A stretch of DNA of 12,246 nt from positions 1-12,246 of the forward strand of contig CAINVQ010000075.1 in the NCBI GenBank assembly GCA_903854175.1, given 5' to 3'. A program made the position numbers and the translations under genes. Positions within the stretch are counted from its first letter, which is position 1. Every line of letters begins with the position of its first letter. The DNA comes from an uncultured Actinomycetes bacterium (GTDB lineage Bacteria; Actinomycetota; Acidimicrobiia; Acidimicrobiales; RAAP-2). The notes beneath the pieces are model-generated. The model was not told the origin of the DNA. It worked only from the letters and a program-made list of their open reading frames with translations, and ran no database searches. Below, piece after piece: positions 1,604 to 12,246 of the stretch.

Positions 1604-2068
1604 TTAACTAGGAACTTCGCTTAAAGCTTGACTGAGTGTGTTCCACGCCAGCACTGCACATTTGATTCGAACAGGGAACTTCACGACACCTTGGAGCGCG
1701 GCAAGTTCTCCGAGGGTACGAATATCAACTTTTTCTGACTCAGCACCGTCTTCGAGCGCAGCCTCATGACCAGTCATTAGGTTCTTAAATGTTGCAATAG
1801 TTTCTTGCACTTTCTCAAGCGGCTTTCCTTTAACGGCAGCGCTCATGAGTGAAGAAGATGACTGTGAAATTGAGCAACCTTGTCCGGTGATTTTTATGTC
1901 TTTAAGTACGCCATCAGCAACGTCAACGTACACAGTTATCTGGTCACCGCAGAGTGGATTAAATCCTTCAGTGCAGACTGCCGGGGGAGTTGGAAGTTCA
2001 CCACGATTACGAGGTGAACGATAGTGATCCATGATGATTTCTTTGTAGAGATCTTCGAGCCCAGCCAT
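1604..2068 (-). CDS. sufU: SufU, zinc-dependent sulfur-transfer/scaffold protein of the SUF system
   Basis: SufU accepts persulfide sulfur from SufS and passes it on for Fe-S cluster assembly in Gram-positive and actinobacterial SUF systems. The 154-residue protein has the IscU/SufU fold with the three zinc-ligating cysteines and an aspartate in place: Cys40 and Asp42 (NPLCGD), Cys65 (GQGCSIS) and Cys137 (IKCAVLAW). The stretch between the second and third Cys carries the longer insertion that separates SufU from IscU, and there is no IscU LPPVK motif. The ATG at 2066-2068 lies 2 bp after the sufS stop, so translation is probably coupled to sufS. It is the last gene of the minus-strand suf operon, and its stop abuts that of the convergent LCP gene with no spacer. 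Confidence 0.94.
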   Translation of the reverse strand: MAGLEDLYKEIIMDHYRSPRNRGELPTPPAVCTEGFNPLCGDQITVYVDVADGVLKDIKITGQGCSISQSSSSLMSAAVKGKPLEKVQETIATFKNLMTGHEAALEDGAESEKVDIRTLGELAALQGVVKFPVRIKCAVLAWNTLSQALSEVPS

Positions 2069-2070
2069 GA

Positions 2071-3306
2071 TTACCCAAACATTCCAATGGCGCTGGTGAG
2101 CGCTTCGAGAAGTACATCTGTGTCTTGTGCAAGAGAGTATGGCCCGTATGAAATTCGTGCTGTTGCATTAAGACCGAATCGCTTCATTAGTGGCTTGGCA
2201 CAGTGGTGGCCAGGGCGAACACAGACTCCGAATTGATCGAGCATCTGTGCAACATCGTGGGGATGAACGCCATCAACATCAATACTGATAACTCCGCCAC
2301 GCTCTTTCATGTCTCGAGGTCCAATTACGCGAATTCGTCCAGAGAACTGCAGTTCGAGTCTCGTCAGTGCATCACCAGTGAGGTCGTGCTCATGTTGTGC
2401 AATGTTCTGCATTCCAAGACCTGTGAGGTACTTGACCGCAGCACCGAGTCCAGCTGCTTCAGCAATCGGTGGGGTTCCTGCTTCAAAGCGTGTTGGTCCG
2501 TTCGCAGGTGTAAATCCATCAACAGAAACATCGGCAATCATTCCGCCACCACCGAGAAACGGTGGCATGTCGGCAAGAATTTCTTTACGTGCCCAGAACA
2601 CACCAATGCCAGTTGGGCCAAGCATCTTGTGTGCTGAGAAGCACATGAAGTCAACGTCTAAGTCTTTAACGTCAGTGACACTGTGCGCAACTGACTGTGC
2701 AGCGTCTACGGCAATAAGCGCACCATTCTTGTGAGCAATCGCGCTGAGTTCTTTGATGGGATTAATGGTTCCAAGAACATTGGACATACCCGTGACTGAA
2801 AGTAGCATTAAGCCCTTCATCAGTTCATCAATGTTTGAAAGGTCAAGTCTGAAGTCATCTGTAACTGGAATAAAGCGAACTTCAAATCCAAGCATTTCAC
2901 GAAGCTGGAACCACGGAACGATGTTGGCGTGGTGCTCCATCTCACTGAGCAGCACTACGTCACCAGGTTTTAGATTGACGCGACCCCATGACCTGGCGAG
3001 CAAGTTAAACGATTCAGTGCAGTTCTTCGTAAAGACAATTTCTTCTGCTCCTCCTGGAGCATTAATGAACTTTGCGATTGCGCGCCTCGCGCCTTCATAT
3101 GCTTCGGTGGCTTCAGCGGCTGTCTGAAAAACAGAGCGGTGAACATTGGCGTGGTGAAGTTCATAATGGCGAGACATTGCTTCAATGACTGCACGTGGTG
3201 GCAGTGATGTTGCGCCTGAGTCCAGGTAGGTAATTGGCCGACCATTAATGACGCGCGTTAACTGCGGAGTGTCGGCTCTAACTAGTGCAGCGTTAAAACT
3301 GGTCAC
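2071..3306 (-). CDS. sufS: SufS-type cysteine desulfurase
   Basis: This PLP enzyme converts cysteine to alanine and leaves a persulfide on its active-site Cys, which is handed to SufU. Key residues of the 411-aa protein are present: the PLP-stacking His126 (EMEHHAN), Asp201 (VDAAQS) binding the PLP pyridine nitrogen, the Schiff-base Lys227 (SAHKMLGPTG), and the catalytic Cys369 in RPGHHCAKPLM, the short-loop type II form of SufS. The GTG start at 3306-3304 overlaps the sufC stop in a GTGA (4-bp overlap), and the product then reads MTSFNAALVRADTPQL. The next gene, sufU, begins 2 bp after its stop. Length and motifs are ordinary for the family. Confidence 0.95.
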   Translation of the reverse strand: MTSFNAALVRADTPQLTRVINGRPITYLDSGATSLPPRAVIEAMSRHYELHHANVHRSVFQTAAEATEAYEGARRAIAKFINAPGGAEEIVFTKNCTESFNLLARSWGRVNLKPGDVVLLSEMEHHANIVPWFQLREMLGFEVRFIPVTDDFRLDLSNIDELMKGLMLLSVTGMSNVLGTINPIKELSAIAHKNGALIAVDAAQSVAHSVTDVKDLDVDFMCFSAHKMLGPTGIGVFWARKEILADMPPFLGGGGMIADVSVDGFTPANGPTRFEAGTPPIAEAAGLGAAVKYLTGLGMQNIAQHEHDLTGDALTRLELQFSGRIRVIGPRDMKERGGVISIDVDGVHPHDVAQMLDQFGVCVRPGHHCAKPLMKRFGLNATARISYGPYSLAQDTDVLLEALTSAIGMFG

Positions 3307-4061
3307 GCGCTAACCGGGCGCCAAGCATCGTAGCCCTCGTGTTCAATCTTCTCGGCTAGTTCTGCTCCACCAGAATGAACAATTTTTCCATCAACAATGA
3401 TGTGAACACGGTCAGGCTTAATTTCTTCCAGAAGCTTTACGTAGTGGGTAACAACTACAACACCCATGGTTGGATTTTCTTCGCGAACGGTGCTGACTCC
3501 TCGAGCAACAATACGAAGTGCGTCGATGTCGAGTCCAGAATCAGTTTCGTCGAGGAAGGCAATGGTTGGCTCTAAGAGTGCCATCTGCAACACTTCGTTG
3601 CGCTTACGTTCTCCACCAGAAAAGCCGTCATTGAGATGACGTTCAGCAAACGCTGGATCCATTCCGAGACGTTCCATCCATTCCATGAGATCGAGTCGAA
3701 CTTCTAGAACACTCAATTCTTCGAGACCCTTACGAGCAGCAATGGCTTGACGAAGGAACTGCACCACTGATACGCCGCTAATTGCTTCGGGGTACTGGAA
3801 TGCGAGAAAGATGCCAGCACGGGCTCGCTGGTCGGCAGACCATGTGGCGATGTCTTCTCCATTGAGAAGAATTTGTCCCTCGGTGACGGTGTAACCGGGG
3901 TGGCCCATAACAACACTGGCGAGTGTTGACTTACCTGCACCGTTTGGTCCCATGAGGGCGTGTACTTCACCGACGTTGACAATGAGGTCGACGCCACGAA
4001 GGATTTGAGAATCCTCAGCTTCAACATGGAGATTCTTGAGTTCTAATAGGGGTGCAGGCAC
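3303..4061 (-). CDS. sufC: SufC, ABC-type ATPase of the Fe-S cluster assembly complex
   Basis: SufC powers the SufBCD cluster scaffold and is cytosolic, not a transporter. The 252-residue protein has all ATPase motifs: Walker A GPNGAGKST (38-46), Q-loop Gln89 (FLAFQYPEAI), signature FSGGE (147-151, preceded by LNDG), Walker B with catalytic Glu (AFLDETDSGLD, about 168-178) and H-loop His206 (VVVTHY). The start is a GTG at 4061-4059, giving MPAPLLELKNLHV. The nearby ATG at 4063-4061 is in another frame. It overlaps sufS by 4 bp. No sufB or sufD is adjacent on this strand, which is unusual because SufC normally works with both. A second SufC-like gene ends at base 167. Confidence 0.94.
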   Translation of the reverse strand: MPAPLLELKNLHVEAEDSQILRGVDLIVNVGEVHALMGPNGAGKSTLASVVMGHPGYTVTEGQILLNGEDIATWSADQRARAGIFLAFQYPEAISGVSVVQFLRQAIAARKGLEELSVLEVRLDLMEWMERLGMDPAFAERHLNDGFSGGERKRNEVLQMALLEPTIAFLDETDSGLDIDALRIVARGVSTVREENPTMGVVVVTHYVKLLEEIKPDRVHIIVDGKIVHSGGAELAEKIEHEGYDAWRPVSA

Positions 4062-7358: not shown

Positions 7359-7817
7359 ATGCAGATACCCGCTAAAGCTGACTATGCCATTAGGGCATTG
7401 CTTACGCTCGCGGCGAGCGAAGAGTCAATCAGTGCTGAGCACTTAGCTGAAGAGCAAGGTCTGCCGGCAAAATTTCTTGGAGCAATTCTTTCTGATCTTC
7501 GCCGTGGCGGAATGGTCACTAGCCAGCGCGGGCCAGAAGGTGGGTTCAAACTTGCACGTGACCCTGATCAAATAATGATTGCGGACATTCTTCGTGTTGT
7601 TTCTGGGCCAATGGCTGGTGTGCGTGGAATGCGTCCTGAGACTCTTGAATACGGCGGAGAAGCAACACATCTTCGAGATGTTTGGGTAGCTGTTCGTGCT
7701 TCACTTCGTGAAGTACTAGAACATGTGACTCTCGGTCAGGTGCTTCGAGGAGAACTCCCAAAGGCCGTTACGCGCTTCACCGATGACCCGGATGCGTGGA
7801 TTACTCGAGTCATATGA
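7359..7817 (+). CDS. Rrf2-family transcriptional regulator without cluster-ligand cysteines
   Basis: Rrf2 proteins are dimeric winged-helix regulators that include IscR, NsrR and CymR. The 152-residue protein has the hallmark N-terminus (AKADYAIRALLTLA, 5-18), the helix-turn-helix (about 24-50: ISAEHLAEEQGLPAKFLGAILSDLRRGG), the wing (TSQRGPEGGFKLARDP, 54-69) and a dimerisation helix (about 104-128). It contains no cysteine at all, so it cannot bind a [2Fe-2S] cluster through the three-Cys motif of IscR. It more resembles cluster-free members such as CymR in that respect. Its last codons overlap rnhA in ATGA. Position beside thiE and near suf genes suggests sulfur or Fe-S control, but targets are unknown. 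Confidence 0.9.
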   Translation: MQIPAKADYAIRALLTLAASEESISAEHLAEEQGLPAKFLGAILSDLRRGGMVTSQRGPEGGFKLARDPDQIMIADILRVVSGPMAGVRGMRPETLEYGGEATHLRDVWVAVRASLREVLEHVTLGQVLRGELPKAVTRFTDDPDAWITRVI

Positions 7818-8329: not shown

Positions 8330-9742
8330 GTGACAAACGAGGTCCAAGAGTTCGATGTAGTGGTGATTGGTGGTGGCCCAGGAGGCTACGCCGCCGCTCT
8401 CTATGGTGCCGCAGCAGGTTTAAACGTTGCTGTTATTGAGCGAGACAAAGTTGGAGGTACCTGCCTTCACCGTGGTTGCGTTCCCGCAAAAGAATTTCTC
8501 GAAACGGCACACGTTCGTCGCACACTCGCACACTCCAGCGATTTTGGAATTACTACCGGTGACGTGAAAGTAGATTTCGCAGTCAGCCAAGCTCGCAAGA
8601 ACGAAGTTGTCGACCGACTCTTTAAGGGAGTGTCTGGACTTCTAAAAGGTCGCAAGGTCACAGTCTTCGAAGGTACTGGACGACTTGACAAGGATCTAAA
8701 AGCAACTGTTGTTGACGGTGCCGATGCCGGGAAAATTGTTCAAGGCAAAAACATCATCCTCGCCGCCGGATCAGTTCCACGCACAATTCCAGGTTTTGAC
8801 ATTGACGGAAAAATCATTGTCACTTCTGACGAGTTCTTAGACCTCACCACACTTCCAAAGACTGCTGCAGTAATTGGTGGAGGCGCAATTGGTTGCGAGT
8901 TCGCTTCAATGCTCAGCGACATGGGATCTGAAGTAACAATTCTTGAAGGACTACCAACCATCCTTCCGCTCTGTGACGCTGAAGTGGTTAAGTCAGTAGA
9001 TCGTGCATTCAAAAAGCGTGGCATCAAAATTCAGGCTGGCGTAAAAATCACTGGTCACACACCAAATGCAAACGGAACAACCGTGAGCGTTGAGGGTGGA
9101 GAAAACATTGATGTTGAAATGGTCGTTGTCTCGGTTGGACGTCGTCCACGCACCGAGGGACTACTGGGCGACTCAACTGGCGTTGTTGTCTCCGATAAGG
9201 GATTTGTTGATGTAGACAGCTACATGCGCACTGGTGCTGCAAATGTCTATGCAGTTGGTGACGTTGTTGCAACGGCACAGCTCGCGCACGTGGCCTTCGC
9301 TGAAGCAATCGTGGCCGTGAAGACAATTCTCGGAGAATCAGTCTTGCCTGTTGACTACGACCGTGTGCCATGGGCAATTTACTCAAACCCTGAAGTTGCA
9401 TTCTGTGGTCTCACGGAAGAAGCCGCTAAGGCCAAGGGCTATGACGTTGTAGTTAAGAAGGACCCATTCGCCGGTAACAGCCGTGCACAGATCATTGGTG
9501 AAACTGACGGAATGGTCAAGATCATTGCTGAAAAGCGCGCCGACGGAACTGCTGGCCAGATCCTTGGTGTTCACATGTCTGGCCCGTGGGTTACAGAACA
9601 ACTTGGTGCTGGTTACTTTGCTGTTAACTGGGAAGCAACTGTTGAAGAAGCTGCTGCTCTCATTCAGCCCCACCCATCACTTTCCGAGACGTTTGGTGAA
9701 ACACTCCTAGCGCTCGCTGGACGAGGACTCCACGTTGGCTGA
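8330..9742 (+). CDS. lpd: Dihydrolipoyl dehydrogenase (E3)
   Basis: E3 reoxidises dihydrolipoyl groups on 2-oxoacid dehydrogenase E2 (and on GcvH) and reduces NAD+. The 470-residue flavoprotein shows the FAD motif IGGGPGGYAAAL (13-24), the redox disulfide Cys45-Cys50 (GGTCLHRGCVPAKE), the NAD motif IGGGAIGCE (182-190), the second FAD motif VYAVGDV (306-312) and the C-terminal interface with the active-site His448-Glu453 pair (HPSLSET). The start is a GTG with AGGA 6 bp upstream. The gene overlaps the E2 gene by 8 bp, so E3 and E2 are translated as a coupled pair. Length and motifs are typical. Confidence 0.96.
   Translation: MTNEVQEFDVVVIGGGPGGYAAALYGAAAGLNVAVIERDKVGGTCLHRGCVPAKEFLETAHVRRTLAHSSDFGITTGDVKVDFAVSQARKNEVVDRLFKGVSGLLKGRKVTVFEGTGRLDKDLKATVVDGADAGKIVQGKNIILAAGSVPRTIPGFDIDGKIIVTSDEFLDLTTLPKTAAVIGGGAIGCEFASMLSDMGSEVTILEGLPTILPLCDAEVVKSVDRAFKKRGIKIQAGVKITGHTPNANGTTVSVEGGENIDVEMVVVSVGRRPRTEGLLGDSTGVVVSDKGFVDVDSYMRTGAANVYAVGDVVATAQLAHVAFAEAIVAVKTILGESVLPVDYDRVPWAIYSNPEVAFCGLTEEAAKAKGYDVVVKKDPFAGNSRAQIIGETDGMVKIIAEKRADGTAGQILGVHMSGPWVTEQLGAGYFAVNWEATVEEAAALIQPHPSLSETFGETLLALAGRGLHVG
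9723..9727 (+). promoter_or_regulatory. Shine-Dalgarno supporting the TTG start of the E2 gene
   Basis: GAGGA inside the lpd 3' end lies 7 bp before TTG (9735-9737). The product then begins MADVTLPSLGESVTEG, exactly where the family's lipoyl domain begins. No ATG or GTG is available nearby in frame, so the TTG is the likely start. Confidence 0.7.
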
Positions 9743-10955
9743 TGTAACCCTCCCATCGCTCGGTGAATCTGTAACCGAAGGAATCATTACTCAGTGGTTC
9801 AAAAAAGTCGGCGACGTCGTCGCACGTGACGAAGCTCTCTTTGAAGTTTCAACCGACAAGGTTGACTCTGAAATGCCATCACCATTCGCTGGTGTCCTCA
9901 CGCAGATCTCTGCTCAAGAAGGCGACACCGTTCAGACCGGTGCCGTTGTTTGTGTCATTGATGAAAACGCAACGGCCGCAAGTGTCGCTCCAGCTTCTGG
10001 CCCAGAACCTGCAGCCCCAGCCCCAGCTCCTGTTGCACCAGCCCCTGCTCCAGTAGCTCAGGCTCCTGCCCCTGCTCCAGTTGCAGCAACGCCGGTTTCT
10101 TCTCAGAGCACCGGACCTGGCGTAGTTGCTTCTCCCGTTGTTCGACGAATCTTGCTTGATGGCGGCATTGACCCAGCCAGTGTTAATGGCACTGGTCCCG
10201 GAGGATCAATTACTCGTCGTGATGCTGAGCGTGCAGTACTCCAAGGTGGCGAAACAGAAGCTGCATTCCCAGTTTCCAGTGGTCGCAAGCGCATGGCTGA
10301 ACACATGGTTGTTTCTTCGCAAAGCACCCCTCACGGTTTCGTTGCCATTGAAGTAGACGCCGACATTTTTGCCAAGCTCGCTAAAAAGGGTCGCGAAAGC
10401 AAAGACGGCATCACCATCACTGACGAAATGGTCGTTGGACTCGCCGCAGTTCGCGCGCTAAGTGACTTTGAGTACTTGAACGCAACATTCCAAGGTGAAG
10501 AAATTGTTGTTCACCGCACCGTTAGCTTGGGCTTTGTTCGCTCACTTGATGAAGACGGCATGTTGGTGCCGGTTGTTCACGCTGCAGCAGGTCTGACGCT
10601 TCGCGCTCTTGCTCGCAGGGTAAGTGAACTTGATGAGCGACTGAGTGAACGTCAAATGACTGCTGACGATCTCATGGGTGGAACATTCACGCTGATGCGC
10701 TCACCAAGTCCTCACACGCTCTACACAGCACCAATCATCATTCAGCCTCAAGTAGCTGTTCTCTCTATTGGATCAGTTCGTGAAGTGCCAGTAGTAGCCA
10801 AGAAAAAGAAGAAAAAGGTCTCAATCGAAATTGGCTACCGAATTGTTCTGGGACTTTCATTTGACCACCGAGTCTGTGAGCCAGTCCTTGCCGCTGCGTA
10901 TCTTGAACGAGTAGCCGAACTACTCGCAGGAATGGACTTGGAGAGCGAGCGCTAA
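9735..10955 (+). CDS. 2-oxoacid dehydrogenase E2 (lipoyl acyltransferase) with a degenerate catalytic site
   Basis: E2 carries acyl groups on a swinging lipoyl arm between E1, its own acyltransferase site and E3. The 406-residue protein has one lipoyl domain (1-78) with lipoyl-Lys42 in STDKVDSEM, an Ala/Pro linker (about 90-120), the E1/E3-binding domain (about 131-168) and the catalytic domain (about 180-406). The catalytic motifs are altered. The usual DHRxxDG reads DHRVCEP (377-383), keeping His378 but replacing Asp by Glu and Gly by Pro. The usual GGTFTxTNxGxxG region reads GGTFTLMRSPSPH (315-327). A run of six lysines (356-361) sits just before the last strands. The frame is intact throughout. 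It could be an E2 of the pyruvate, 2-oxoglutarate or branched-chain complex; no E1 gene is in the window. Confidence 0.88.
   Translation: MADVTLPSLGESVTEGIITQWFKKVGDVVARDEALFEVSTDKVDSEMPSPFAGVLTQISAQEGDTVQTGAVVCVIDENATAASVAPASGPEPAAPAPAPVAPAPAPVAQAPAPAPVAATPVSSQSTGPGVVASPVVRRILLDGGIDPASVNGTGPGGSITRRDAERAVLQGGETEAAFPVSSGRKRMAEHMVVSSQSTPHGFVAIEVDADIFAKLAKKGRESKDGITITDEMVVGLAAVRALSDFEYLNATFQGEEIVVHRTVSLGFVRSLDEDGMLVPVVHAAAGLTLRALARRVSELDERLSERQMTADDLMGGTFTLMRSPSPHTLYTAPIIIQPQVAVLSIGSVREVPVVAKKKKKKVSIEIGYRIVLGLSFDHRVCEPVLAAAYLERVAELLAGMDLESER
10014..10082 (+). repeat. Ala/Pro linker repeat within the E2 gene
   Basis: The seven-residue unit APAPAPV occurs three times, at residues 94-100, 101-107 and 110-116. 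The DNA copies differ at third positions. This is the flexible linker that lets the lipoyl domain swing between active sites, not a separate repeat element. Confidence 0.8.
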
Positions 10956-12246
10956 ATGTTGCGTCGGCGCCACCTCGGCAGAGTTCCATTCGCCGAGGCC
11001 AATGACTTTCAAAGAGCGCTTCTTAACGCCAAGGATGATTACATCCTTCTATTCGAACATCCACCTACCTATACCAAGGGTGTTCGCACTGAAGAAAAAA
11101 ACATCCTCGCAGACTTAAGCAAACTCGATGCGGTTGTCATTGACGCCGACCGTGGCGGAGACATTACGTATCACGCACCAGGCCAAGTTGTTGCCTGGCC
11201 AGTTGTAACAGTCCTTGACGATCCATCATCTGGCAAAGTGCATAACGCACTTCTCGAAGACGCAGTTATTGCAACGGTCAAGAGTTTTGATGCTTCAGGA
11301 AAACTCGGCGTTGTTGGCAGGCTTGATGGTTACCCGGGTGTCTGGGCTCATACTGACAGCACTCCTTACAAAATCGCCGCAATTGGAACTCGAACTGAGC
11401 GAAATGACGCAGGTCTTAGAAGGACACTGCATGGCGTTGCGCTCAACGTTGAAATTGACCTGGTGGGCTTTTCTGCCATTGTTCCTTGTGGCATTTCTGA
11501 GCACCCCGTAGGTTCATTGAAGTCACTGGGGCTAAGCGTCACGGCTCTTGAAGTCGAAGAGCGTCTCGGTGAAGAACTAGAAGCACGGCTCGGTGGCAAC
11601 GCGCAAGTTGCACACGTAGACCGAAGTCTCTCGACAACATCTTCTGAGCGACCTCTAATTCGCCGTCTTCGAAAAGCAGGCGTAGACCCTGATGCAGGAA
11701 TCCCAATTCGATCTCGCAAGCCCGAATGGCTTCGTATTGAGGCGCATATGGGAGCTGAGTACCAGTCACTTCGCACGCTCACCGAAGATCTTCGACTGGT
11801 AACTGTTTGTGAAGAAGCGGGATGTCCAAATATCTTTGAATGTTGGGAAAGCGGAACTGCAACCTTCATGGTTAATGGAGAGCGCTGTACCAGAGCATGT
11901 GGGTTCTGTCTGATTGATACCCGTAAACCAATGGCGCTTGATCCAACTGAGCCAGACCGTGTTGCTGAAGCCGTAGTTCGCTTGAAGCTAAAGCACGCTG
12001 TAATTACTTGTGTTGCTCGAGATGACCTAGCTGATGGTGGTGCCGGGGCAATTGCCGACACCGTTCGTGCAATCCGTGAACGCTCACCAGGAACAGACGT
12101 TGAAGTACTAATCAGTGACCTCAAGGGTGACATGAACGCGCTGCAGCTCATTATTGATGCACGACCTGACGTAATGAATCACAACATTGAAACAGTTGCT
12201 CGACTACAGCGCGCAGTTCGCCCTAGCGCTGGGTACATGCGTTCAA
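10956..12246 (+). CDS. Octanoyltransferase-lipoyl synthase fusion (LipB-LipA), 3' end outside the window
   Basis: One open frame of 430 visible codons contains both lipoate-synthesis enzymes with no stop between them. LipB (about 1-213) moves octanoate from acyl carrier protein to the target lysine. It shows RGGDITYHAPGQ (66-77), Lys139 (YKIAAIG), HGVALNV (159-165) and catalytic Cys178 (VPCGI). After a linker (about 214-250), LipA inserts two sulfurs. It shows RKPEW, the auxiliary-cluster cysteines 285, 290 and 296 (CX4CX5C), the radical-SAM cysteines 311, 315 and 318 (CX3CX2C), ARDDLADGGAG and NHNIET. The frame runs off the edge, so the LipA C-terminus is unseen. The ATG directly follows the E2 stop (TAA-ATG), with GGAGAG about 10 bp upstream. 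No ATG, GTG or TTG lies in the linker. The first in-frame ATG in LipA is codon 265 (11748), with GAGG 5 bp before it. Confidence 0.92.
   Translation, partial: MLRRRHLGRVPFAEANDFQRALLNAKDDYILLFEHPPTYTKGVRTEEKNILADLSKLDAVVIDADRGGDITYHAPGQVVAWPVVTVLDDPSSGKVHNALLEDAVIATVKSFDASGKLGVVGRLDGYPGVWAHTDSTPYKIAAIGTRTERNDAGLRRTLHGVALNVEIDLVGFSAIVPCGISEHPVGSLKSLGLSVTALEVEERLGEELEARLGGNAQVAHVDRSLSTTSSERPLIRRLRKAGVDPDAGIPIRSRKPEWLRIEAHMGAEYQSLRTLTEDLRLVTVCEEAGCPNIFECWESGTATFMVNGERCTRACGFCLIDTRKPMALDPTEPDRVAEAVVRLKLKHAVITCVARDDLADGGAGAIADTVRAIRERSPGTDVEVLISDLKGDMNALQLIIDARPDVMNHNIETVARLQRAVRPSAGYMRS

Follow-up and report, generated by a model that had tools for sequence, protein, structure and literature searches.

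Lipoate is assembled by octanoyl transfer followed by sulfur insertion on one protein-bound chain, and physical cooperation between the enzymes of the two steps, the octanoyltransferase LipB and the lipoyl synthase LipA, is a natural question. It is raised by a 12,246 nucleotide (nt) stretch of DNA (the window; contig CAINVQ010000075.1 of assembly GCA_903854175.1) from an uncultured bacterium of the class Acidimicrobiia, for which a prediction made from the letters alone had claimed that lipB and lipA are encoded as one polypeptide. Is this frame a true fusion, does it yield one protein, and what would such a protein gain? The claim is strongly supported by the single open frame, its Pfam domains and the recurrence of the join across the class. 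We consider it highly probable that the gene encodes a bifunctional enzyme for both de novo steps of lipoate synthesis, fused near the base of the class and placed in an lpd-E2-lipBA run (lpd, dihydrolipoyl dehydrogenase; E2, the acyltransferase with the lipoyl domain).

One open reading frame carries LipB and LipA

The ATG at 10956 starts 430 stop-free codons and its frame reaches the end of the window at 12245, still open. Pfam assigned LplA-B_cat (PF21948; residues 18-208) to the LipB half and LIAS_N (PF16881; 252-290) and Radical_SAM (PF04055; 309-422) to the LipA half, all above their cut-offs, and the E-values of 1e-73 for LipA and 2e-40 for LipB exclude a chance match. As the window ends LipA at residue 430, the remainder was read from the homologue P0002, a full-length protein of 541 residues whose residues 1-430 are identical to those of the window. 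We confirm the 10956 frame as a complete LipB that continues without a stop into LipA.

The LipB half scored 103.7 bits with TIGR00214 against a cut-off of 83.55, and the first half of the predicted structure has the LipB fold. Lys139 and Cys178, named in the original prediction, both align with the dyad of E. coli LipB (Lys135 and Cys169), and along with His73, Arg66 and Gly68 they are invariant in 45 divergent members of the fusion; the catalytic roles of the Cys/Lys dyad are those given in passages of PMC9307952. The LipA half scored 247.9 bits with NF004019 (cut-off 203) in the window frame, and TIGR00510 gave 342.1 bits on full-length P0002 (cut-off 310.25) and 216 on the piece cut by the window. 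The CX4CX5C and CX3CX2C motifs recognized in the original prediction (C285-X4-C290-X5-C296 and C311-X3-C315-X2-C318) match the six corresponding cysteines of E. coli LipA in alignment and are likewise invariant in 45 divergent members, while a C-terminal RSSY motif at 520-523, beyond the end of the window, is visible solely in P0002; passages of PMC12246082 give the roles of the cysteine motifs and of RSSY. LipA homology was also correctly said to begin ahead of the first in-frame methionine, Met265, as LIAS_N matches from residue 252 and residues of the predicted model from 227 match Mycobacterium tuberculosis LipA from its residue 4.

The predicted model of the fusion reached an overall predicted template modelling score (pTM) of 0.92. 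As a control we folded P0200, a protein with the two domains in the opposite order, and its model was poor (mean predicted local distance difference test, pLDDT, 67.4; pTM 0.46; alignment mean identity 75%), which makes it uninformative on interfaces and leaves the pTM of the fusion without a good control.

Nearly all matching Acidimicrobiia genomes carry the fusion

The fusion was matched by 363 of the 395 genomes of the class to which genome G001 belongs, and a script count over all 363 rows found both domains in one frame in 348. These comprise 262 genomes with a single near-full match, nine with a single end-cut match running from LipB into LipA, and 77 with two matches in which LipB and LipA lie on the same contig with equal open-frame length. 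In ten exceptions the matches lie at contig ends or are split between two contigs (G109, G149, G156, G197, G206, G240, G291, G344, G382 and G386); besides, G221 has a frameshift, G227 is fused up to the contig end as judged from its locus L174, and in G288 and G379 the LipA match stands alone among the matches listed. At the DNA level all 68 class loci (L081-L148) were fused, some of them repeating a first set of 80 genome-contig loci of which 53 were fused and stop-free, 23 had separate genes and two were cut by the contig start. In Acidimicrobiia, LipB-LipA fusion is a trait of the class as a whole. The earlier suspicion that databases hold such fusions proved right, with at least 348 class genomes holding one, and the proposed search of protein databases for the architecture and its spread found it near-universal in the class and present in other lineages too.

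The 53 fused loci are all metagenome-assembled genomes (MAGs), titled Acidimicrobiaceae, Acidimicrobiales, Acidimicrobiia, Actinomycetes, Actinobacteria and similar, with one Candidatus Microthrix and one Acidobacteria. The contig of the latter (L014, Acidobacteria bacterium REEB88) sits among the Acidimicrobiia fusions in both the LipA and the LipB tree, and is probably a misnamed MAG. Named isolates (Mycobacterium, Nocardia, Arthrobacter, Streptomyces, Cellulomonas and others) had separate genes in 18 of 18 cases. In a sample of the phylum 171 of 198 genomes matched, and none of 18 loci from genomes of this sample taken as outside the class was fused, these loci having been selected in the main because LipA sat in a long open frame, and LipB being missing from the fetched stretch in three.

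The class assignment is consistent with database names such as Acidimicrobiales bacterium and Ilumatobacter sp. The protein names printed for Acidimicrobiia fusions were all lipoyl synthase or lipoic acid synthetase, most entries being nameless, and because these names cover the LipA half only, a name-based survey could count Acidimicrobiia as having no octanoyltransferase.

Origin of the fusion and its closest known relatives

A 534-residue query, searched by its E. coli LipB part, matched 672 proteins of a length that would allow a fusion. Among the 120 of these that were listed, the LipB-LipA order was seen in 17 full and one partial protein and the LipA-LipB order in 71 full and 14 partial ones, and 17 had another or no second domain. 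In the LipA and LipB trees (62 rows) the Acidimicrobiia fusions formed one group with support of 85/84 and 83/89, the opposite-order fusions formed one group in both trees with good support in the LipA tree only, and the E. coli-like LipB-LipA fusions clustered around E. coli. As these placements differ, the architecture arose more than once. Transfer of one fusion from Acidimicrobiia to proteobacteria was considered and is unsupported, the E. coli-like fusions standing near E. coli or on their own branch. The class fusion would have formed at or near the base of Acidimicrobiia by joining of neighbouring lipB and lipA, and would have been retained since.

The gammaproteobacterial-type fusions (P0127, P0128, P0140, P0142 and P0158) share the domains and their order with the class fusion but group with or near E. 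coli, which points to a separate origin, whereas the opposite-order LipA-LipB proteins (P0146, P0150, P0200 and P0237), also predicted to hold both activities in one chain, have the reversed order and a different LipA branch. Two partial opposite-order proteins are named 'lipoate synthase/lipoate-protein ligase B' by the Joint Genome Institute (JGI). The NCBIfam family NF053790 (LplA_LipA_fuse, bifunctional lipoate--protein ligase/lipoyl synthase) resembles the class fusion in the LipA half that ends the fused chain, but its other half is by name LplA, of the superfamily of LipB, where the Acidimicrobiia fusion has LipB instead; its profile gave 354.1 bits against a cut-off of 800, over positions 329-605 only, which is the LipA half. 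The substrate of LipB is acyl-acyl carrier protein (acyl-ACP) and not free lipoate. Compared with the octanoyltransferase LipB (TIGR00214; M. tuberculosis 1w66, E. coli LipB), the C-terminus here runs into LipA, with 41% identity to 1w66 in a structural alignment, and compared with the lipoyl synthase LipA (TIGR00510; M. tuberculosis 5exk, human LIAS), the N-terminal extension here is joined to LipB and has no starting methionine.

In the lipBA operon of Shewanella, lipB and lipA are adjacent and co-transcribed as two genes, in contrast to the single gene here, and the relevant passages of that report mention no fusion protein (PMC4398509). The passages on fusions in a GTDB-wide survey of lipoate genes treat LplA with LplB, and none of them LipB-LipA (PMC10332631). 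A description of a LipB-LipA fusion was not found in the open-access literature searched. The LipB and LipA families and the LplA-LipA fusion are already known.

Observations against the proposed reading and alternative explanations

Several observations weigh against a bifunctional enzyme kept throughout the class. No match was found in 32 of the 395 class genomes, which may reflect incomplete genomes or true absence, and G098 (L173) has a lone LipB of 250 residues, with LipA not found in the genome; this LipB is followed by a frame on the opposite strand, which we take to be cytochrome P450-like. A stop was flagged in 17 of the 262 single-match genomes; the fusion stands in the two that were checked, the stop lying at the extreme end of LipA in G325 (L109) and none lying between the domains in G130 (L126), and the remaining 15 have open frames of 559-1017 residues. 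Among the first 80 loci, LipB is interrupted by an in-frame stop in L048 and by a frame change in L027, and the trees give the single origin within the class only moderate support. Apart from these, all but one of 86 fused relatives carry at least one ATG, GTG or TTG within the linker region, though at no conserved position, and the predicted model is weak at residues 221-230 (pLDDT 64), a conceivable site of linker cleavage. The LipB half also scored below four of five LipB equivalog cut-offs (NF010925, 139.2 against 155; NF010921, NF010923 and NF010922), and one or two extra LplA/LipB-type (PF21948) matches were present in 14 of 30 class genomes, below the cut-off in two of the 14. A second strong PF21948 match was also seen beside the fusion of G365 (G365:C14:60512-61105; 130 bits, 384-residue open frame), and this protein is possibly a second octanoyltransferase or a ligase.

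As the Actinomycetes loci examined have separate adjacent lipB and lipA, a missed base or stop in sequencing or assembly might have merged two ordinary neighbouring genes. The identical join, however, recurs throughout a class, and in eight relatives (L001, L003-L009) the gene length is unchanged over 541 codons while the 35 junction codons carry 18-24 silent against 7-13 replacing changes, silent ones exceeding replacing ones in all eight. Because the eight relatives are equal in length and their junction changes mainly silent, the missed base within 11590-11740 that the original prediction had named as its possible refutation is excluded in practice. The other two frames have three stops each over 11590-11747, and of eleven 541-residue database entries, found on 58 contigs (a tally of contigs, not of independent assemblies), three show no difference from the window over 430 residues and the other eight show one or two. 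On class-wide recurrence and junction evolution the artefact was rejected, and its probability is negligible. A single frame might still give two proteins if LipA arose mostly by internal initiation or linker cleavage, for which ATG265 with a GAGG upstream in the window, the start-like codons of the relatives and the weakly modelled segment could be cited. As had been claimed of the linker, the window frame has no ATG, GTG or TTG between TTG188, within LipB, and ATG265; GAGG stands just ahead of the Met265 position in only four of the 26 aligned loci with a methionine there, plus the window (three when counted by codon), and a product begun at 265 would be without the RKPEWLR segment and conserved LIAS_N residues; nor do the 15 exceptional genomes among the 363 include any stop-and-restart layout. 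Internal initiation at ATG265, the other refutation foreseen, therefore found no support and was set aside as unlikely in the window, given the stretch from 188 to 265 without a start codon and the rarity of GAGG in relatives. A separate LipA product could still be made in relatives, as 85 of the 86 have start-like codons in the linker region, but we hold the two-protein explanation as a whole to be improbable. The LipB half could also be a module for docking the lipoyl domain or ACP that has no transferase activity, as might be suggested by its faster change than that of the LipA half and by the four unreached cut-offs. Against this, the dyad, His73, Arg66 and Gly68 are invariant, the TIGR00214 cut-off is exceeded, and in 16 of the 30 class genomes the fusion is the sole PF21948 match; as no other LipB/LplA-type match exists in those 16, the fusion is probably their only octanoyltransferase, and a mere docking role is very unlikely.

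Frame, conservation, motifs, folds, gene order and spread together suggest that both activities of the bifunctional enzyme reside in one protein in the cell, with E2 as its main substrate. Judged by the intact motifs, the LipB half would move octanoate from acyl-ACP onto Cys178 and then to the lipoyl lysine of a lipoyl domain, and the LipA half would insert two sulfurs into the octanoyl chain by radical S-adenosylmethionine (SAM) chemistry, the auxiliary cluster being the sulfur source. The advantage of such a fusion is most likely equal dosage and proximity, and it is possible that the octanoylated domain is handed over within one chain, as the original prediction had suggested. Since the lipoyl domain is a mobile carrier in its own right, equal dosage, co-folding or mere closeness of the two halves could explain the fusion just as well. 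It is doubtful that the enzyme is a fixed two-site machine, with LipB and LipA packed in one set arrangement, in which a docked lipoyl domain would be octanoylated and then sulfurated without leaving, and with the E2 substrate provided by the same run of genes; such a solution would have been reached separately and in both orders in E. coli-like lineages, and if this is true, hand-over of the substrate during lipoate assembly could be tested directly. The fusion might also bring no catalytic benefit, having been fixed by chance and kept since re-splitting two essential genes is hard, for which one origin in the class would suffice to explain the spread and with which the wide variation between the domain matches (alignment ends 103-358 nt apart across 68 loci) would agree. 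This is a real possibility that we nevertheless do not favour, as similar fusions in both orders outside the clade, in E. coli-like lineages, may suggest a recurrent advantage. Kept across a class and formed separately elsewhere, the fusion offers a ready one-protein system for testing the cooperation of the two enzymes.

Gene neighbourhood

The features of the locus are collected in Table 1. As the fusion gene closes the lpd-E2-lipBA run, co-production of the E2 substrate with the enzyme that modifies it is probable, and the stop codon of E2 abuts the ATG of the fusion at 10956. E2 lies closely upstream of lipB in most fused loci (directly abutting it, at 0 nt, in the majority of the nearest relatives), and lpd stands ahead where the contig reaches; the exceptions are L044, L045 and L049, with lpd present but E2 unmatched, and L039 and L053, with neither. 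In the unfused Actinomycetes loci the E2 and lpd matches were far off or absent in the stretch fetched.

Table 1. Coordinates of the lipB-lipA fusion, its domains and the genes of its run
Feature	Position	Strand	Basis or remark
lpdA, dihydrolipoyl dehydrogenase (E3), first of the lpd-E2-lipBA run	8330..9742	+	TIGR01350 482.9 bits against 408.8; synteny
E2, one lipoyl domain, likely substrate; lipoyl Lys42 at 9858-9860	9735..10955	+	SucB/E2 matches below equivalog cut-offs; lipoyl Lys motif; spacing from lipB in relatives
lipB-lipA fusion gene	10956..12246	+	open at the end of the window; full protein 541 residues in P0002
LipB octanoyltransferase domain, residues 1-215	10956..11600	+	
Lys139, catalytic dyad lysine (E. 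coli Lys135)	11370..11372	+	alignment; invariant in 45 members
Cys178, acyl-enzyme cysteine (E. coli Cys169)	11487..11489	+	alignment; invariant in 45 members
Junction, residues 216-251	11601..11708	+	later part corresponds to the N-terminal extension of actinobacterial-type LipA; evolves as protein
LipA lipoyl synthase domain, residues 252-430, cut by the end of the window	11709..12246	+	PF16881, PF04055; TIGR00510 on full protein
ATG265, nearest possible internal LipA start, judged not used	11748..11750	+	
CX4CX5C, auxiliary cluster ligands C285, C290, C296	11808..11843	+	
CX3CX2C, radical-SAM cluster ligands C311, C315, C318	11886..11909	+	

The E2 beside the fusion, in the window (9735-10955) and in L001-L021, L027, L050 and L054, keeps the lipoyl lysine (STDKVD). 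The acyltransferase motif of the same-locus E2, DHRVCEP or a close variant, lacks the Gly of DHRxxDG and often the Asp as well, and the more distant fused loci where the motif was found have the usual DHRxxDG form; the catalytic role of the E2 adjoining the fusion may have changed. A cysteine-free Rrf2-family regulator is encoded at 7359-7817, immediately ahead of RNase HI and the lpd-E2-lipBA run, and further upstream sufC-sufS-sufU lie on the opposite strand at 1604-4061.

Among the listed matches of the fusion search, LipB also shared a chain with DUF493/YbeD (PF04359), which in E. coli is encoded ahead of lipB, and with other domains (P0130, P0135, P0182 and others), these further partners presumably being GNAT, DUF559, OsmC and MoaE.
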